64,000 nt of DNA from positions 1-64,000 of the forward strand of contig JAFDXR010000014.1 in the NCBI GenBank assembly GCA_018267825.1, in the 5' to 3' direction. The position numbers and the translations under genes are program-made. Below are positions 3,398 to 42,773 of the stretch, in pieces. The notes beneath the pieces are model-generated. The model saw only the letters and a program-made list of their open reading frames with translations. It had not been told where the DNA came from and did no database searches. Within the stretch, counting starts at the first letter, position 1. Each line of letters opens with the position of its first letter. This DNA is from Bacteroidota bacterium (lineage in GTDB: Bacteria > Bacteroidota > Bacteroidia > B-17B0 > Aurantibacillaceae).

Positions 3398-4567
3398 TTA
3401 ATAAAAGCGTTTAGCTTCTTTATGCATGGTTTTCAGGATCACGGCTGTACGGTAGCGGTCTTCCTCATAGCGTGAATAAAGATGATTCAGCATGGTGACC
3501 ACCTGTTCGATACCCATTTCATCGGCCCACTTTAAAAGGCCTTTCGGGTAGTTCACACCCTTGGTCATGGCCAGGTCAATATCGGCTACGGATGCGATAC
3601 CCAGGTAAAATGTATCGGCCGCTTCGTTGATGAGCATGGCAAGAACCCGTCTTACAATGTATTCGCCAAGTCCGGGATCTTTTACAGGCTCCGGATTTAC
3701 AGCACCCTCGCGGTAATCGTAAAATCCACGTCCGGTCTTTTTACCCAGGAATTTGGCTTCGAGGAGGCGTTTCTGACTAAGGGCCGGTTTGAAACGGGGA
3801 TCATAATAGAATTGTTTCCACACGGTTTCTGTTACCACATAATTCACATCATGCCCGATGAGGTCCATCAGTTCAAAAGGCCCCATTTTAAAACCACCAA
3901 TCTCTTTCATGGCCCAATCAATGGTAGCCATATCGGCAATCTGCTCTTCGTAAATGCGGAGGGCTTCGCTGTAAAACGGGCGCGCTACGCGGTTTACAAT
4001 AAAGCCGGGTGTGTCTTTGGCAATAACCGTAATTTTTCCCCAGCCATCGATCAGTGTTTTGCAGGCTGTTGTAACACCCTGCCCGGTAGCGATTCCGGGT
4101 ATAATTTCAACCAGCGGCATGAGTGTGGCCGGGTTAAAAAAATGGATGCCGACAACACGTGAAGGATCCTGGCAGGCCGAGGCAATAGAGGTTACCGACA
4201 GCGAAGAGGTATTGGTGGCCAGTACGCAGGTTTTGGAAACAAGTGCTTCTGTTTCGGCAAATACTTTTTGTTTAATGTCGATATTTTCGACAATGGCTTC
4301 TATAATAAGATCGCAGGATTTAAGTTCCTGCAGAGAGCTGCAATAGCTGGTATTCGCAAGAATGGAGTCCGCTTTTTCGCGGCTTATTTTTTGTTTTTCA
4401 ACCAGTTTATCCAGGCTGGCATTGAGACCATTGCGCGCTTTTTCGATAGCGGCCGGGTTATTGTCGTAAATAATGGTTTTGTGTCCGGATGTTGCCGCAA
4501 CCTGGGCAATTCCGCTACCCATAGCGCCTGAACCGATAACACCGATGATACTTTCCTGTGAAAACAT
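3398..4567 (-). CDS. 3-hydroxyacyl-CoA dehydrogenase (3-hydroxybutyryl-CoA dehydrogenase type)
   Basis: Oxidises L-3-hydroxyacyl-CoA to 3-ketoacyl-CoA with NAD+ in fatty-acid or phenylacetate-type beta-oxidation. The N-terminal Rossmann motif is IGVIGSGAMGSGIAQVAA. The HFFNPATLMPLVEIIPG segment carries the conserved His-Phe-Phe-Asn-Pro of the family, and two C-terminal 3HCDH helical regions follow (GFIVNRVARPFYSEALR; GVNYPKGLLKWADEMG). About 389 residues, as usual for the PaaH-like form with a duplicated C-terminal domain. I chose the ATG at 4567 (MFSQESIIGVIG) over 4597 because the family starts shortly before the GxGxxG motif. No beta-oxidation partner is adjacent. Confidence 0.88.
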   Translation of the reverse strand: MFSQESIIGVIGSGAMGSGIAQVAATSGHKTIIYDNNPAAIEKARNGLNASLDKLVEKQKISREKADSILANTSYCSSLQELKSCDLIIEAIVENIDIKQKVFAETEALVSKTCVLATNTSSLSVTSIASACQDPSRVVGIHFFNPATLMPLVEIIPGIATGQGVTTACKTLIDGWGKITVIAKDTPGFIVNRVARPFYSEALRIYEEQIADMATIDWAMKEIGGFKMGPFELMDLIGHDVNYVVTETVWKQFYYDPRFKPALSQKRLLEAKFLGKKTGRGFYDYREGAVNPEPVKDPGLGEYIVRRVLAMLINEAADTFYLGIASVADIDLAMTKGVNYPKGLLKWADEMGIEQVVTMLNHLYSRYEEDRYRTAVILKTMHKEAKRFY

Positions 4568-25405: not shown

Positions 25406-26385
25406 CGGAATCGGATCTTTGATGAAAGTTTTTTTGAAGGTTTTTCAATCATGTAATACATAAGCCATGATGAGCCAAAGGTAATTAAAATGCCAAGTAA
25501 TAATACACCGGTTTTTTGCATAAAAGTCAACGGATAATGTGCCAAAATATTAATAATAGCAACACCGATAATGCAGTGTACAAGATAAACCGAGTAGCTG
25601 AATTTTCCCATCCATCCTAAAAACGGAATATTAATACGGTCAAAAAACAGAATACACAATGCTGTAAGTATCCCAATAATGGTGATATCAGCACCCAACG
25701 CAAAAAAATTATACATAGCAGCTGCGATAAGCACACATGCCAGTTCTGTTTTTCTGGTCAGATGACACTTGAATTGAAAGACTGCGATACCAGTTAGAAA
25801 TAAAGGGGCATACGCCGGAAAATGAGTACGGTATTTTAATAGTAAGAGCGAGCTAATAAAACAAAGAGCATATGCAATCAGACGTTTTGAAAGCGCGGAT
25901 GAGATGAATAGGCCATAAATAAGAGCCATAAGTATATAATATTGGAACTCAATGGCTAGTGTCCAATAAACATTATTTAGCCAATGGTAATTCGGGAAGA
26001 AATTTATGAGGTAGCCCAGGTGAAGTATCACGCCTGTTATGGTCACAGGTTCCTGTTTTCCATAATCATAACCGATTTTGGTTTTCAGAAAAAGAATTGC
26101 CAGTACGAGAAGAATGGAGCAAATGTAGGGTGGATCCAGGCGTACAATCCGCTTTAAAATAAAACGAAAGAAGGAACTGGGTTTATAGTTCGCATTAAAC
26201 ATGGACCATGGAATAATGAAGCCCGAAATGACAAAAAATACGTGCACCCCATATTGACCGTAAGAAAATACTTGTTTTACACTTTCATTTCCTATGAAAC
26301 CGGTAACCGTACAGATGAAATGATATAGGCATACACTCCATGCAGCAATGGCCCTGAGGCTTTCTATAATAGGTATTTGTTTCAA
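25402..26385 (-). CDS. acyltransferase family 3
   Basis: 327 residues, about ten hydrophobic segments. N-terminal IESLRAIAAWSVCLYHFICT (Arg and His of the active site), GVHVFFVISGFIIPWSMF, FILKRIVRLDPPYI and NVYWTLAIEFQYYILMAL (the ExxxY region). Likely O-acetylates a sugar of the same glycan as the other acyltransferase in the operon, at a different position. Ten bases downstream of the upstream glycosyltransferase. Confidence 0.9.
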   Translation of the reverse strand: MKQIPIIESLRAIAAWSVCLYHFICTVTGFIGNESVKQVFSYGQYGVHVFFVISGFIIPWSMFNANYKPSSFFRFILKRIVRLDPPYICSILLVLAILFLKTKIGYDYGKQEPVTITGVILHLGYLINFFPNYHWLNNVYWTLAIEFQYYILMALIYGLFISSALSKRLIAYALCFISSLLLLKYRTHFPAYAPLFLTGIAVFQFKCHLTRKTELACVLIAAAMYNFFALGADITIIGILTALCILFFDRINIPFLGWMGKFSYSVYLVHCIIGVAIINILAHYPLTFMQKTGVLLLGILITFGSSWLMYYMIEKPSKKLSSKIRFR

Positions 26386-37551: not shown

Positions 37552-37579
37552 ACCCAACCATTCATCTTTTATGAACGTA
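37552..37579 (+). promoter_or_regulatory. ECF-type promoter element before the sigma gene
   Basis: ACCCAACCATTC (37552-37563) contains an AACC -35-like core. Exactly 16 bases after AACC comes CGTA (37576-37579), a typical ECF -10. The same 12-mer with the same 16-base spacing to CGTA occurs at 40921, upstream of the T9SS cargo gene. The sigma ATG follows 24 bases after CGTA. Confidence 0.75.
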
Positions 37580-37603
37580 TGGGTTTAATTGATACCCTAC
37601 TGT

Positions 37604-38170
37604 ATGGACATTCAGCTTGAATTAATAACAAATTGTATTAAGCGCGACCGAAAGGCTGAATACGAGATGTATAAAGCTACGTACAGTTACCTGATGAGCA
37701 TTTGTATCAGGTATACCAGAAATCAGGAAATGGCTAAGGAAGTCCTGAATATTGGTTTTTTGAAAATTCTGAATAATCTCCCTAAATATAAACCTGAAGT
37801 GCCTTTTCAGGTGTGGATCCGTAAAATCATGATCAATACACTCATTGATGAATACCGAAAACAGAAAACCCATCATGAAAAAATAGAATACGTGGAAGTG
37901 TATCATGAAACGGAAACAAACATAGAGATGAACGATGTCATGAAAAAAATAAATGCTGCCCAGATTTATGAACTGATTGCCAGACTGCCAAATGCCAGTC
38001 AACAGGTTTTTAACCTGTATGCAATCGATGGTTTTTCGCACCGGGAAATTGCCGATTTATTGAATATAAGTGAGGGGACTTCCAAATGGCATCTTAATTT
38101 CTCCCGTCAGAAGTTAAAAGAAATGCTCGAAAAAATGGTTTCACCATCTAAAATTGCCTACCATGAGTGA
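37604..38170 (+). CDS. ECF (extracytoplasmic function) RNA polymerase sigma factor
   Basis: 188 residues from ATG 37604 (MDIQLELITNCIKRDRKAEY); the TTG at 37589 only adds five residues. Region 2 is visible in YEMYKATYSYLMSICIRYTR and VPFQVWIRKIMINTLIDEYR. Region 4 is LPNASQQVFNLYAIDGFSHR followed by EIADLLNISEGTSKWHLNFS, a helix-turn-helix. The start of the next gene (38163) overlaps its end by 8 bases, as is common for sigma/anti-sigma pairs. A shared ECF-type promoter element lies upstream, pointing to autoregulation. Confidence 0.93.
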   Translation: MDIQLELITNCIKRDRKAEYEMYKATYSYLMSICIRYTRNQEMAKEVLNIGFLKILNNLPKYKPEVPFQVWIRKIMINTLIDEYRKQKTHHEKIEYVEVYHETETNIEMNDVMKKINAAQIYELIARLPNASQQVFNLYAIDGFSHREIADLLNISEGTSKWHLNFSRQKLKEMLEKMVSPSKIAYHE

Positions 38171-39746
38171 TGCAAATAATATAGATGACATACTGAAGAA
38201 TAAGCTCCGGGAACAGGAGTTTGCTTTTGATGAACAGAACTGGGAAAAAGCCCGTGATCTGATCGATGCGTCGCGCCGTCGTAAAAAACGACTGATTATT
38301 TTTTGGCCGCTGATAGGTTTATCACTTATTATAGCCTCTGTGTGGCTTTATATGGCGAAAGGCACGAACGACAGTACACTGGCCGAAAATCACAGTTCGG
38401 TCGTGACAACACCTACAGACGAAAAATCAAATGTGACCGAAGCTGCAAAACAAGCAGCGACAGTCAGCAAAGAAGAAAATATTAATAAAACGCACAAAGC
38501 AATAGTTTCTACTCCCTCCAATCCGAATCATGTAACATCTGAAAAAAAAGAAAACAAGCGTTATGAAAGCGAGACAAATCCGGAAATTAAGGAGAGCACT
38601 TCTATGGAAAATTCTGAAAAAAACGGGAGTTCAAACCCAGGTAGCCATGCCGTTACAGGAACCATGCCCGGAAAATCATCCAAAACAAAAATAAATACCG
38701 GGCAAAATCAGGGAGTTACTAACGGTAAACAGATAACCGTTTCGGGGAATGAAATAAACCACCCGGCTGGGGCAACGGAAGCAGCGAATAAAACAGGCAC
38801 GCAAGATAAGAACGAAAAAAATACAGAGAGTCAGAATCACAGTGAATCCGGTATTTCCAAAACAAAACATGCCGGTGAAAATAAGGCTGCAGTCAATACA
38901 GATTCTGAGGCAATGACATACGAAGCAGAGCCTGCCTATATGATACCGGTTCAGGTTCGGTTTACAGATGCACCCGCAGATGGTAGTATTGTTTTGCTGA
39001 ACCCGATCGCCCTGCCGGAAAATGAATCATCGTCAGAAACTACAACACCTCTAAGCAAGGCGCCACGGCATTTGGTGTATGCCGATTTCGGCGGGTCCTA
39101 TCTGTTGGGCTGGAAGAATGCCGCAAAGCGCGAAGGAGATGGAATCAATCTGACAGGAGGGATCAGTTATCAGTTCATCGCCAATTCAGGAATAGGGGTA
39201 AGTGCAGGCGTTCAGTATAACGCCGTGGGTCATTTAATAAATAGTTCCTACGTAGTAAACGATACCCGGTATAGTTTTGGTAAAGAAGAAACCGTGACGG
39301 TTATCGAGCAAAAACGCCTGCATTATATAACCATGCCTGTTCGATTTATTTTTGCGCAAGGTACTAAACGCTATTTCGGCATCGGTTGTAATTTCGGGTA
39401 CCTGGTCAATTCTCAGAACCTGATTAAGAAATACGAGTTTATGAATGGAGCGCAAAGCCCGGTTTCAGCCCCGAATACTACCTTAACTGAAAACTTTACG
39501 GCGGTTAGCGGATTAAACAATCCTGTGTCATCTTCGAACACCACAGGTTACAGAAGAGGATTTAATCCTTACGATCTGCAGCTCACGGCATTTTACAGGC
39601 AACCGTTGTATGAACGTGTGACTATAGGCGCAGAAGTGTTTTTTGGAATGATGGATATAAAGCAAAACTCATTTTTCAAATCCTCTTATTTTGATCGTAA
39701 TTACGGTTTGAAAATAACCATTGGATGTGATTTGTTTAAAAAATAA
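38163..39746 (+). CDS. putative dual membrane-spanning anti-sigma factor (Dma-like)
   Basis: 527 residues from ATG 38163. Domain order: acidic then basic N-terminal segment of about 43 residues, with a DEQNWEKARDLIDASRRRKK region facing the cytoplasm; one transmembrane helix (about 44-64, LIIFWPLIGLSLIIASVWLY); a linker of about 220 residues rich in N, T, S, E and K, almost without hydrophobic residues; then a C-terminal outer-membrane beta-barrel (about 300-527, LVYADFGGSYLLGWKNAAKR through YGLKITIGCDLFKK). No signal peptide precedes the helix. This matches the architecture described for Dma anti-sigma factors of Bacteroides. The anti-sigma function is inferred from the overlap with the ECF gene and this layout. 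Confidence 0.8.
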   Translation: MSDANNIDDILKNKLREQEFAFDEQNWEKARDLIDASRRRKKRLIIFWPLIGLSLIIASVWLYMAKGTNDSTLAENHSSVVTTPTDEKSNVTEAAKQAATVSKEENINKTHKAIVSTPSNPNHVTSEKKENKRYESETNPEIKESTSMENSEKNGSSNPGSHAVTGTMPGKSSKTKINTGQNQGVTNGKQITVSGNEINHPAGATEAANKTGTQDKNEKNTESQNHSESGISKTKHAGENKAAVNTDSEAMTYEAEPAYMIPVQVRFTDAPADGSIVLLNPIALPENESSSETTTPLSKAPRHLVYADFGGSYLLGWKNAAKREGDGINLTGGISYQFIANSGIGVSAGVQYNAVGHLINSSYVVNDTRYSFGKEETVTVIEQKRLHYITMPVRFIFAQGTKRYFGIGCNFGYLVNSQNLIKKYEFMNGAQSPVSAPNTTLTENFTAVSGLNNPVSSSNTTGYRRGFNPYDLQLTAFYRQPLYERVTIGAEVFFGMMDIKQNSFFKSSYFDRNYGLKITIGCDLFKK

Positions 39747-39767
39747 ATAATGCATTAAGATAAAGCT

Positions 39768-40910
39768 ATGAGGTATTTTAAAATTATATGGCCAGTGCTG
39801 CTTCTGTTGGTGGCAGTGTCCTGCAAGAAAAAGGATTACCCTGATCCGGTGGTGGAAAATGATCCGCAGTTTTATTTCAAAGGGACGGTCAATGGCATTA
39901 ATACCGACCTGGAAGCTGGTATTAACAATTACTACATGTATGCCTCTTATTCCCAGGATGCCAATAATGTGTATCGCTTTTCGGGAAATCTGAAACCCAA
40001 CGGATGTAGTTTTTGTACCAACGGGCTCGAAATTATCATTAACGACAGCCGTGTATCGCCAGCCGGTGCGTCCACGTATATCGACTCAGCCTTCTTTACG
40101 GGCGATTACCCTTACATTAAAGGTGGCGCTGCATCTACAATATCGAGTCTTGTTTATTTTACGGGGTCTTTTAATCAGCCTGCTCTATTATCTGCTGCCT
40201 GGAATTTTGGCGATGGTGGAACATCATCTCAAACTTCGCCTCAGCATGTTTTTAAGTCGCTTGGTAAAAAACAGGTATGTTTAACCATGAATGACTCATC
40301 ATGCAACAGCACTGTTTGTGGCACGTTTGTAGCAAGGCCGATGGGTGATAGCAGTTTATGGGCTTCGGTTCAGGGCTTTCAGATGGGAGGCGATTCGATT
40401 ACGTTCTCTGCACATATTTCGGGGCAACCACCATTGTCCTATTCCTGGGATTTCGGCGATGGGGTAACAACTGCTGTTACAACATCTACATCCACTTCCC
40501 TGGCCGAAATACATCAATATGCTGCAGCGGGATCATATCCTGTAAAACTGAAAGTCAGCGATGCTTACGGCGACACGGTATATTCCAATTACAATGCCAA
40601 TACATTGAATACATCGAATTGTGCGGCTAATTATCAGGTATCGGCGATCATTCCGCTGTCAAATCCCTTTGGCTTTTCCAATATTGAAGTCAAATGGACC
40701 GATGCATCGGGTATTGTATATACTTCAAATAATGCCAATCAGCCGCTCACAAGTTATTTTGAAATACTGTCGGTCGAGAACTATAAGAATAACGAAAACG
40801 GACAGAGTACAAAGCGTTTGCATGTGAGATTCAAATGTATGGTTTATAACGGCGCAACAGGCATTTTGATTGATAATGCAGAGGCTTATATCGCGATTGC
40901 ATATAAATAA
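39768..40910 (+). CDS. PKD-domain lipoprotein
   Basis: 380 residues. The signal peptide IIWPVLLLLVAVSC ends in lipobox Cys19, followed by KKKDYPD. Two PKD-type domains are marked by LSAAWNFGDGGTSSQTSPQH and LSYSWDFGDGVTTAVTTSTS. The C-terminal domain (FGFSNIEVKWTDASGIVYTS) is beta-rich and unassigned. Probably an outer-membrane surface lipoprotein. It starts 21 bases after the Dma-like gene and so is probably in the same transcript as the sigma factor. Confidence 0.82.
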   Translation: MRYFKIIWPVLLLLVAVSCKKKDYPDPVVENDPQFYFKGTVNGINTDLEAGINNYYMYASYSQDANNVYRFSGNLKPNGCSFCTNGLEIIINDSRVSPAGASTYIDSAFFTGDYPYIKGGAASTISSLVYFTGSFNQPALLSAAWNFGDGGTSSQTSPQHVFKSLGKKQVCLTMNDSSCNSTVCGTFVARPMGDSSLWASVQGFQMGGDSITFSAHISGQPPLSYSWDFGDGVTTAVTTSTSTSLAEIHQYAAAGSYPVKLKVSDAYGDTVYSNYNANTLNTSNCAANYQVSAIIPLSNPFGFSNIEVKWTDASGIVYTSNNANQPLTSYFEILSVENYKNNENGQSTKRLHVRFKCMVYNGATGILIDNAEAYIAIAYK

Positions 40911-40920
40911 TTTGAAGGTG

Positions 40921-40948
40921 ACCCAACCATTCTTTTTTTGCGATCGTA
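40921..40948 (+). promoter_or_regulatory. ECF-type promoter element before the T9SS cargo gene
   Basis: ACCCAACCATTC (40921-40932), 16 bases from AACC to CGTA at 40945-40948: same sequence and spacing as the element at 37552. The ATG of the PKD/T9SS gene follows about 70 bases later. Confidence 0.75.
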
Positions 40949-41018: not shown

Positions 41019-42773
41019 ATGAATATGAAAAACTATCAAAAAAGCAGATCGGGTAAAAGCATGTTTCTGATCCTTGCATTTGTACTTGTTGCGTTTGCAC
41101 AGGTTAAAGCAGGTTGCAATTTTGGGATCACCGCAAAAACCCACGCCGGTTTAAATTGCAATATTACTATTGGTCAGGGACCATGGGGCCCACGTATGTA
41201 TACCTGGCAGTTTGGCGACGGTACTACAGGCATATCATACTCCAATGCATCCAATACAACGGCAATAGCCCATACCTATCCCGGTTCAGGGGTTTATACC
41301 ATGACCATCACCTCGCAGGATAGTACCGGTGGCGGATGTGTAAGCTGGATTACAGACACCATTCAGGTAAGCGGGGGGACGTTTTCTCCATGTGCACCTC
41401 AGTTTACCTATTGGGTAGACAGCACGAACTGTTCTGTGCATATTGTCAATCAATCTACCGGAGGCAGTTCTCCGACATACGATTGGGTTTGCTTTGATGG
41501 TAATGGTTACTATTATGTAAACAACCAGGCAAATCCTGTGCTTACATTCACCACCAGCGGAAATCATTACGTTTCATTATATCAGAATGACGGAGGTGTT
41601 TTCTGCGACAGTATTTCGCAACTCATTGTGATGCCTGCATCATGCGGAGGCACACCTGTAGGAAACGGTTGTACCGCACAGTTTTTTGCCAGCCAGACCT
41701 CTGGTACCAATTGCTGGCAGTTTACAAATCAAAGCACATCTACAAGCCCTTCTGTTAGCTATACCTGGCATTTCGGCGATGGAAGCAGTTCCACACAGGC
41801 TAATCCGATCCATTGTTATACCGATAGTTTAGCCTATCACCTGATCACACTCTGGATGTCGGCAAGCAACGGTTGTTCAGACAGTGTATCTGTGTCTGTA
41901 ATAGATTCTTCTTTCACAGGTGGAAACGGCGGTGCCGGCTGTAATACACAGTTTTATTATTGGGTCGACAGCACAACATGCGACGTACACTTTATGAATC
42001 AGAGTACGAATGCAACTTCGTTCCAGTGGTATTTCTTTGATGGTGTTTCAACATATACATTTACTTCGTTCAGTCCTGTGCTTCCTTTCCCATCCAATAC
42101 AGGTGCTGTGTACGCTACACTTTACGGGTTTAACAACGGTCAGTTTTGCGACAGCATTTCTCATACTGTGTATTTTCCGACAAGTTGTGGTGGTTCGGGC
42201 AACCCTACCGGTGGTTCATGCAATGCACAGTTCATTCTGATCAACGACAGTATTAATACGCATACCTATTATGCGTACAATTCATCGACCGGCACGGGTT
42301 TATCATACCTGTGGGATTTCGGCGACGGATCAACATCTACACTTCAGTATCCGAGCCATACCTATGCTACAGCCGGTAATTATGTAGTATGCCTTACAGT
42401 TACAGGTTCCAATTCATGTACATCAACGTACTGCGATTCCAACAATGTTCAGAAAATTGCCGCCTCACACTTAATGCAATACCTTATTGCAAAACCGGCC
42501 AATGCTACAGGGATTCAGAATCTTGAGAAACAAGTGATGTTATCTCTATACCCGAATCCGGCAGTAAATGAATTAACTATTGAGTCAACAACAGAAATTC
42601 AAGCTGTAAAAGTTTCAGATATTTCCGGTAAAATCGTACTAAAACAGGGCAACATCGGTTCTATGGAGCACCGCCTGAGCATTTCATCTCTGGATGCAGG
42701 AAGTTATTTCCTTGAAATATCCACCAAAGATGGAGGTAAGGCTGTAAAACGCTTCGTGAAAATAGCTGACTAG
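41019..42773 (+). CDS. PKD-repeat protein with C-terminal T9SS sorting domain
   Basis: 584 residues. Signal peptide (LILAFVLVAFAQVKAG), then repeated PKD and PKD-like modules with WQFGDGTTGISYSN, YTWHFGDGSSSTQANPIHCY and YLWDFGDGSTSTLQYPSHTY, alternating with related modules of the type QFTYWVDSTNCSVHIVNQST / QFYYWVDSTTCDVHFMNQST (two diverged copies, rich in Cys). The last ~80 residues (LYPNPAVNELTIESTTEIQA and DAGSYFLEISTKDGGKAVKR) form a type A T9SS sorting domain. So it is exported to the cell surface or medium by type IX secretion, where the PKD modules may act as an adhesin. It has its own ECF-type promoter element and a terminator after the stop. Confidence 0.9.
   Translation: MNMKNYQKSRSGKSMFLILAFVLVAFAQVKAGCNFGITAKTHAGLNCNITIGQGPWGPRMYTWQFGDGTTGISYSNASNTTAIAHTYPGSGVYTMTITSQDSTGGGCVSWITDTIQVSGGTFSPCAPQFTYWVDSTNCSVHIVNQSTGGSSPTYDWVCFDGNGYYYVNNQANPVLTFTTSGNHYVSLYQNDGGVFCDSISQLIVMPASCGGTPVGNGCTAQFFASQTSGTNCWQFTNQSTSTSPSVSYTWHFGDGSSSTQANPIHCYTDSLAYHLITLWMSASNGCSDSVSVSVIDSSFTGGNGGAGCNTQFYYWVDSTTCDVHFMNQSTNATSFQWYFFDGVSTYTFTSFSPVLPFPSNTGAVYATLYGFNNGQFCDSISHTVYFPTSCGGSGNPTGGSCNAQFILINDSINTHTYYAYNSSTGTGLSYLWDFGDGSTSTLQYPSHTYATAGNYVVCLTVTGSNSCTSTYCDSNNVQKIAASHLMQYLIAKPANATGIQNLEKQVMLSLYPNPAVNELTIESTTEIQAVKVSDISGKIVLKQGNIGSMEHRLSISSLDAGSYFLEISTKDGGKAVKRFVKIAD

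Follow-up and report, generated by a model that had tools for sequence, protein, structure and literature searches.

A repeated ECF-type promoter element probably links a putatively autoregulated sigma factor, encoded beside a predicted Dma-type anti-sigma factor, to T9SS surface proteins in a Bacteroidota bacterium

We analysed a stretch of 64,000 nucleotides from a Bacteroidota bacterium (the window), in which a three-gene operon headed by a sigma factor gene is followed by a gene for a secreted surface protein (Table 1). The sigma factor scored above the cut-offs for Sigma70_r2 (PF04542) and Sigma70_r4_2 (PF08281), and matched TIGR02937 with 92.1 bits against a cut-off of 42.9. It possesses regions 2 and 4 only and lies within the length range of ~170 to 200 aa, as is expected of an ECF sigma factor (sigma-70 group 4). 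Its solved relatives are SigW, SigH and SigE, and its ATG and N-terminus are conserved among relatives.

Table 1. Features of the sigma factor locus and their positions in the window
Feature	Position	Strand	Evidence
P1, putative ECF-type promoter element ACCCAACCATTC-N12-CGTA	37552..37579	+	Conserved before sigma orthologues; weight matrix
188-aa ECF sigma factor with regions 2 and 4	37604..38170	+	Pfam, NCBIfam, solved relatives
Predicted Dma-type anti-sigma factor, 527 aa	38163..39746	+	AlphaFold2 model, barrel matches, gene neighbourhood
PKD-domain lipoprotein of 380 aa, encoded third in the operon	39768..40910	+	PKD over cut-off, alignment, model
P2, putative ECF-type promoter element ACCCAACCATTC-N12-CGTA	40921..40948	+	Conserved position in related modules; weight matrix
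Proposed direct target: 584-aa secreted surface protein carrying PKD repeats and a type A T9SS sorting domain	41019..42773	+	PKD_4, Por_Secre_tail, TIGR04183

The sigma and anti-sigma genes share 8 bases, and a homologue of the latter comes next after the sigma gene in 78 of 81 loci. The AlphaFold2 model of its product showed N-terminal helices (residues 4-45), a transmembrane helix (47-65), a disordered tether of ~235 residues (~66-300) and a beta-barrel (302-523), with pLDDT values mostly above 90 in the barrel and below 50 in the tether. The barrel matched OmpA, Ail and OmpX, and a weak match to OMP_b-brl_2 was also obtained. The predicted structure thus has the Dma architecture, and its gene adjoins an ECF sigma gene. 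The lipoprotein gene was present in 75 of the 81 loci; Cys19 of the protein was invariant in an alignment of 42 relatives, and its model had a pLDDT of 91. As a constant part of the operon, the lipoprotein is a candidate co-sensor. Searches of Pfam, NCBIfam and the PDB for a function of the anti-sigma factor and the lipoprotein gave nothing beyond the barrel and PKD folds. Of the two, the lipoprotein is conserved more strongly, with identities of up to 46% compared to up to 30% for the anti-sigma factor. The sorting domain of the surface protein, referred to below as the cargo protein, exceeded the cut-offs of both TIGR04183 (44.6 bits versus 23) and PF18962 (51.7 versus 27), which assigns it to type A.

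A sequence-only reading of this DNA had pointed to a 12-mer, ACCCAACCATTC, at positions 37552 and 40921, with exactly 16 bases between AACC and a following CGTA in each case. Both copies were found there on the plus strand with this spacing, the AACC and CGTA boxes occupying 37556-37559 and 37576-37579 in P1, and 40925-40928 and 40945-40948 in P2. Their location at promoter distance was likewise borne out: 24 bases separate the last base of CGTA from the sigma ATG at P1, and 70 bases separate it from the cargo ATG at P2, which starts 10 bases past the stop codon of the lipoprotein gene. With an AAC -35 box and a CGT -10 box at fixed spacing before the sigma factor's own gene, P1 has the features of an ECF-type promoter. 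Sigma-W type promoters of Bacillus subtilis have an AAC-containing -35 box, a CGTA -10 box and a 16-base spacer. The element in the window shares this layout; in the consensus of its relatives, the informative sequence was ACCCAAC[C/T][T/A]TT-N13-[C/T]GT[A] with a T-rich late spacer, the part before N13 being the -35 box that distinguishes it.

The exact 12-mer occurred only twice in the 4.82-Mb genome, at P1 and P2, and was thus not common at non-promoter places, the case that the sequence-only reading had named as refuting. All 16 defined letters were matched only at these two sites. The single 15/16 match was located elsewhere in the genome (contig C10:63350); the window itself holds no third copy, as had been suspected from scanning by eye. 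Loose forms of the element were unremarkable in frequency, with AACC-N14..18-CGTA occurring 6 times in the window against 6.04 expected; across the genome, AACC-N16-CGTA was counted 123 times and its reversed pattern 117 times. The generic core was therefore dropped as a genome-wide predictor, and the extended element is needed. The core AACC-N16-CGT(A), proposed in the sequence-only reading as what ECF sigma factors recognise, is too loose alone.

A weight matrix was trained solely on the relatives' sites before sigma genes, leaving P2-type sites outside the training set. Among the 127,944 positions on both strands of the window, P1 (26.6) and P2 (24.2) were the best two, and the top score in 200 shuffled windows was 22.3. 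The next score in the window (16.9, at 26103 on the minus strand) came from a site within coding sequence, which was rejected. The matrix scan covered the window, and the genome was searched by pattern. The refined pattern CCCAACCWTT-N13-YGTA returned P1, P2, C10:63351 and C4:173474 from the window's genome; the last was rejected as an artefact lying antisense in rpsC, in conserved coding sequence. Two weaker matches were observed at C2:151025 (AACCTTTC...), which adjoins a secreted protein gene, and at C1:93196 (AACCTAAACTCC...), which precedes one. A chance repeat or a local duplication without regulatory meaning would agree with the finding that the loose core is no commoner than its reversed control. 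However, the identity between P1 and P2 is restricted to the boxes while the spacers differ, conservation of both sites extends to other species, and the shuffles reached neither score, so we give this explanation practically no credence.

Sigma relatives were gathered from 150 related genomes and from a wider set of public genomes, the latter consisting entirely of uncultured Bacteroidota assemblies. The form [C]CCAAC[CT]-N16-[CT]GTA was present in all 30 close sigma loci (29 relatives and the window), 18 to 38 bases before the aligned sigma start. In the larger set of 80 regions upstream of ECF sigma genes (window included), 60 carried the strict form C.AAC[CT]-N16-[CT]GTA, compared to 0.135 expected from shuffles, and the spacer was 16 bases in every one of the 60. 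Apparent 18-base spacers read CGTGTA, with CGT still at 16. Most of the upstream regions that lacked the strict form carried CGTG, CGTT or CCAACA instead, and the element was absent upstream of the most distant sigma relatives in this set (46-50% identity). Two genomes (G061, C1:1957596 and 1957725; G067, C1:658173 and 658301) have tandem elements ~128 bases apart upstream of the sigma gene.

The order of sigma, anti-sigma and PKD lipoprotein genes is conserved in the related modules, often followed by one or more genes for PKD/T9SS proteins. An element at the P2 position, just after the third gene and on the sense strand, was found in 33 of 73 modules, compared to none of the 73 on the antisense strand and none in reversed sequence. 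P2 was not recognisable in about half of these 73 modules; in several of those without it (L165, L166, L173, L183 and L184), the gap to the next gene was only ~13 to 32 bases, too short for a promoter of its own to fit there.

In several relatives, what comes directly after the element at the P2 position is not a gene but a run of 75 to 125 bases with a strong intrinsic terminator at its end, and the candidate RNAs start just past CGTA. A conserved unit of ~95 to 125 bases behind such an element was observed in L291 (9120-9249), L207 (300-431), L204 (300-433), L292, L294 (4586-4718), L282 (8562-8714), L226 and L340. This unit contains GTTCTGTGTT in repeated form, and compensatory changes are seen in its terminator stem. 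A covariance model of this unit gave eight strong matches in 87 genomes, all starting at an element, although this test is not independent because six of them were training sequences and two were known from the promoter search. The model had no match in the window's genome, where P2 precedes the cargo gene in place of the RNA-like unit, and no Rfam family covers the candidate RNAs. Some units end ~30 to 40 bases before a gene and may therefore be leaders with an attenuator rather than free RNAs; other lineages have no gene close behind. We regard the GTTCTGTGTT unit as a candidate sigma-controlled small RNA or, where a gene comes next, as an attenuator-bearing leader.

These RNA-like units also bear on the possibility that the element is a transcription factor operator or a conserved leader RNA element instead of a promoter. 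The element does lie close to start codons, and its -35-side box (ACCCAACCATT) exceeds the typical length of an ECF -35 box. However, it shows no dyad symmetry, always points towards the gene and comprises two ECF-type boxes at an invariant 16-base spacing, and the relatives' candidate RNAs begin right past CGTA. An operator or leader element is thus very improbable, and we retain the reading of P1 and P2 as promoters.

The occurrence of the element depended on the presence of the sigma gene. When 87 family genomes were searched with the refined pattern, with the recurrent antisense rpsC match set aside, there were 93 sites versus 8 in reversed controls among the 47 genomes that have a close relative of the sigma factor, and 8 sites versus 5 among the 40 that lack one. 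The enrichment (Fisher p 0.007) is indicative only, since the compared genomes share ancestry and their counts are not independent. Promoters serving mainly a different or additional ECF sigma factor, in a shared and overlapping regulon, would be conceivable: the window's genome has 13 further ECF-like genes, one study suggests that ECF regulons overlap in Flavobacterium psychrophilum (PMC9723704), and relatives possess two or more paralogous sigma modules with an almost identical element, which makes cross-recognition possible. However, the element was found upstream of none of the other 13 ECF-like genes (best score 8.4, compared to 26.6 for P1), and sites were enriched only where a close sigma relative was present, so we consider this alternative unlikely.

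With its conserved footprint, second site, rarity and sigma dependence, the element supports the earlier proposal of an autoregulated sigma factor with the PKD/T9SS protein as a direct target. P1 and P2 are, with high probability, promoters for the neighbouring ECF sigma factor, in an autoregulated ECF/Dma-type system whose direct targets would include T9SS surface proteins.

The third genomic copy (C10) ends 41 bases before the gene for a secreted protein of 1044 aa that has SprB repeats together with a T9SS sorting domain. In the relatives, many unlinked element sites likewise precede genes for exported proteins. All ten proteins behind element sites that were run against Pfam carried a sorting domain, which serves as an illustration and not as a rate because the nine from relatives were chosen partly by their C-termini. 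At least 150 stretches of the window's genome (150 of 230 candidates were scored) scored as T9SS type A sorting domains, so that the element marks a small subset of T9SS cargo. This is a large secretome for a 4.8-Mb genome.

In Bacteroides thetaiotaomicron, Dma anti-sigma factors are encoded beside ECF21 sigma factors, and the genes showing the largest increase upon loss of Dma2 are das2 and its neighbours in the operon, a pattern consistent with autoregulation (PMC13088901). As in those systems, the ECF sigma gene of the window adjoins an anti-sigma gene whose product has an N-terminal domain, a transmembrane helix, a disordered tether and a C-terminal beta-barrel, and there is a third operon gene. 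However, the known outputs of Dma in B. thetaiotaomicron are vesicles and polysaccharide loci, whereas the proposed targets in the window are T9SS cargo and the third gene encodes a PKD lipoprotein; neither a promoter motif nor the T9SS is named for Dma systems in that report. The likeness in architecture and gene order suggests that the system in the window works like a Das/Dma system.

In Flavobacterium psychrophilum, 5'-end sequencing mapped a set of ECF-type promoters, termed SM6, that have CGT as their -10 box (PMC9723704). One of them precedes an ECF/anti-sigma pair, similar to P1, and others precede T9SS genes. These T9SS genes encode machinery (gldN, porU), as opposed to cargo in the window. 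The SM6 promoters are the nearest mapped relatives that we found in the phylum. In the PorXY-SigP system of Porphyromonas gingivalis, an ECF sigma factor also controls T9SS-related genes; however, SigP is under a two-component system and acts on genes for T9SS components, and the motif put forward for it, C(T)AAA(G/C/T)A(T)A(C)T(A/G)A, bears no relation to the element described here (PMC4800418).

The promoter part of the following mechanism is strongly supported by the conservation and distribution of the element. P1 would drive the operon of sigma factor, Dma-type anti-sigma factor and lipoprotein, which would make the sigma factor autoregulated; P2 would drive the gene for the PKD/T9SS surface protein, and the C10 copy that for the SprB-repeat protein. 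The anti-sigma factor very likely anchors the sigma factor at the inner membrane with its barrel placed in the outer membrane. A change at the outer membrane or cell surface, sensed by the barrel and perhaps by the lipoprotein, would free the sigma factor, which would then transcribe its own operon from P1 and the surface cargo from P2 and from the unlinked sites. That the sigma factor reads the elements and is bound by the anti-sigma factor, as well as the inducing signal, the release step and the transcription starts, we infer. The regulon and RNA candidates have computational support.

Taken together, these data point to a circuit, conserved in dozens of uncultured relatives, that may switch on selected surface proteins. 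A concrete candidate promoter sequence and a target list are now at hand for a Dma-type sigma/anti-sigma system, and the Dma-type architecture would be tied to type IX cargo instead of vesicles and loci for polysaccharides. This bears on surface-to-transcription signalling in Bacteroidota and on the choice among >100 T9SS cargo genes. More tentatively, and with considerable doubt, the system could be an equivalent, in Bacteroidota, of the sigma-E response of enterobacteria, in which an ECF sigma factor, restrained by an anti-sigma factor that spans both membranes, controls selected T9SS cargo and, in relatives, small noncoding RNAs encoded right behind the sigma operon. The feedback loop this includes, with the lipoprotein and barrel sensing the surface and responding to cargo display, is our conjecture. 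The relatives' candidate RNAs, if true, would mean that an operon of this kind has small RNAs attached to it that are under sigma control.

Small-RNA candidates of other sequence were also observed. In L179 (3760-4130), L181 (3812-4240), L267 (9326-9900) and L178 (minus strand, 3744-3900), one or two elements lie between the lipoprotein gene and the glyS or cargo gene, and behind each of them comes a short unit with a strong terminator of the GCAGCTTTTGGGATGGGGCTGC type and no gene. In other lineages, represented by L212 (1-316, minus strand), L288 (5745), L295 (8111) and L184 (6611, minus strand), an element is followed by 84 to 123 bases and an intrinsic terminator, and the terminator sequences are unrelated. 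A conserved protein of ~175 aa (MK..KSLSPFILLLIIG..FRFLFFISYIK), one member of which gave no match in NCBIfam, is encoded after the candidate RNA in L207 (460-987), L226 (2634-3155) and L291 (9280 onward).
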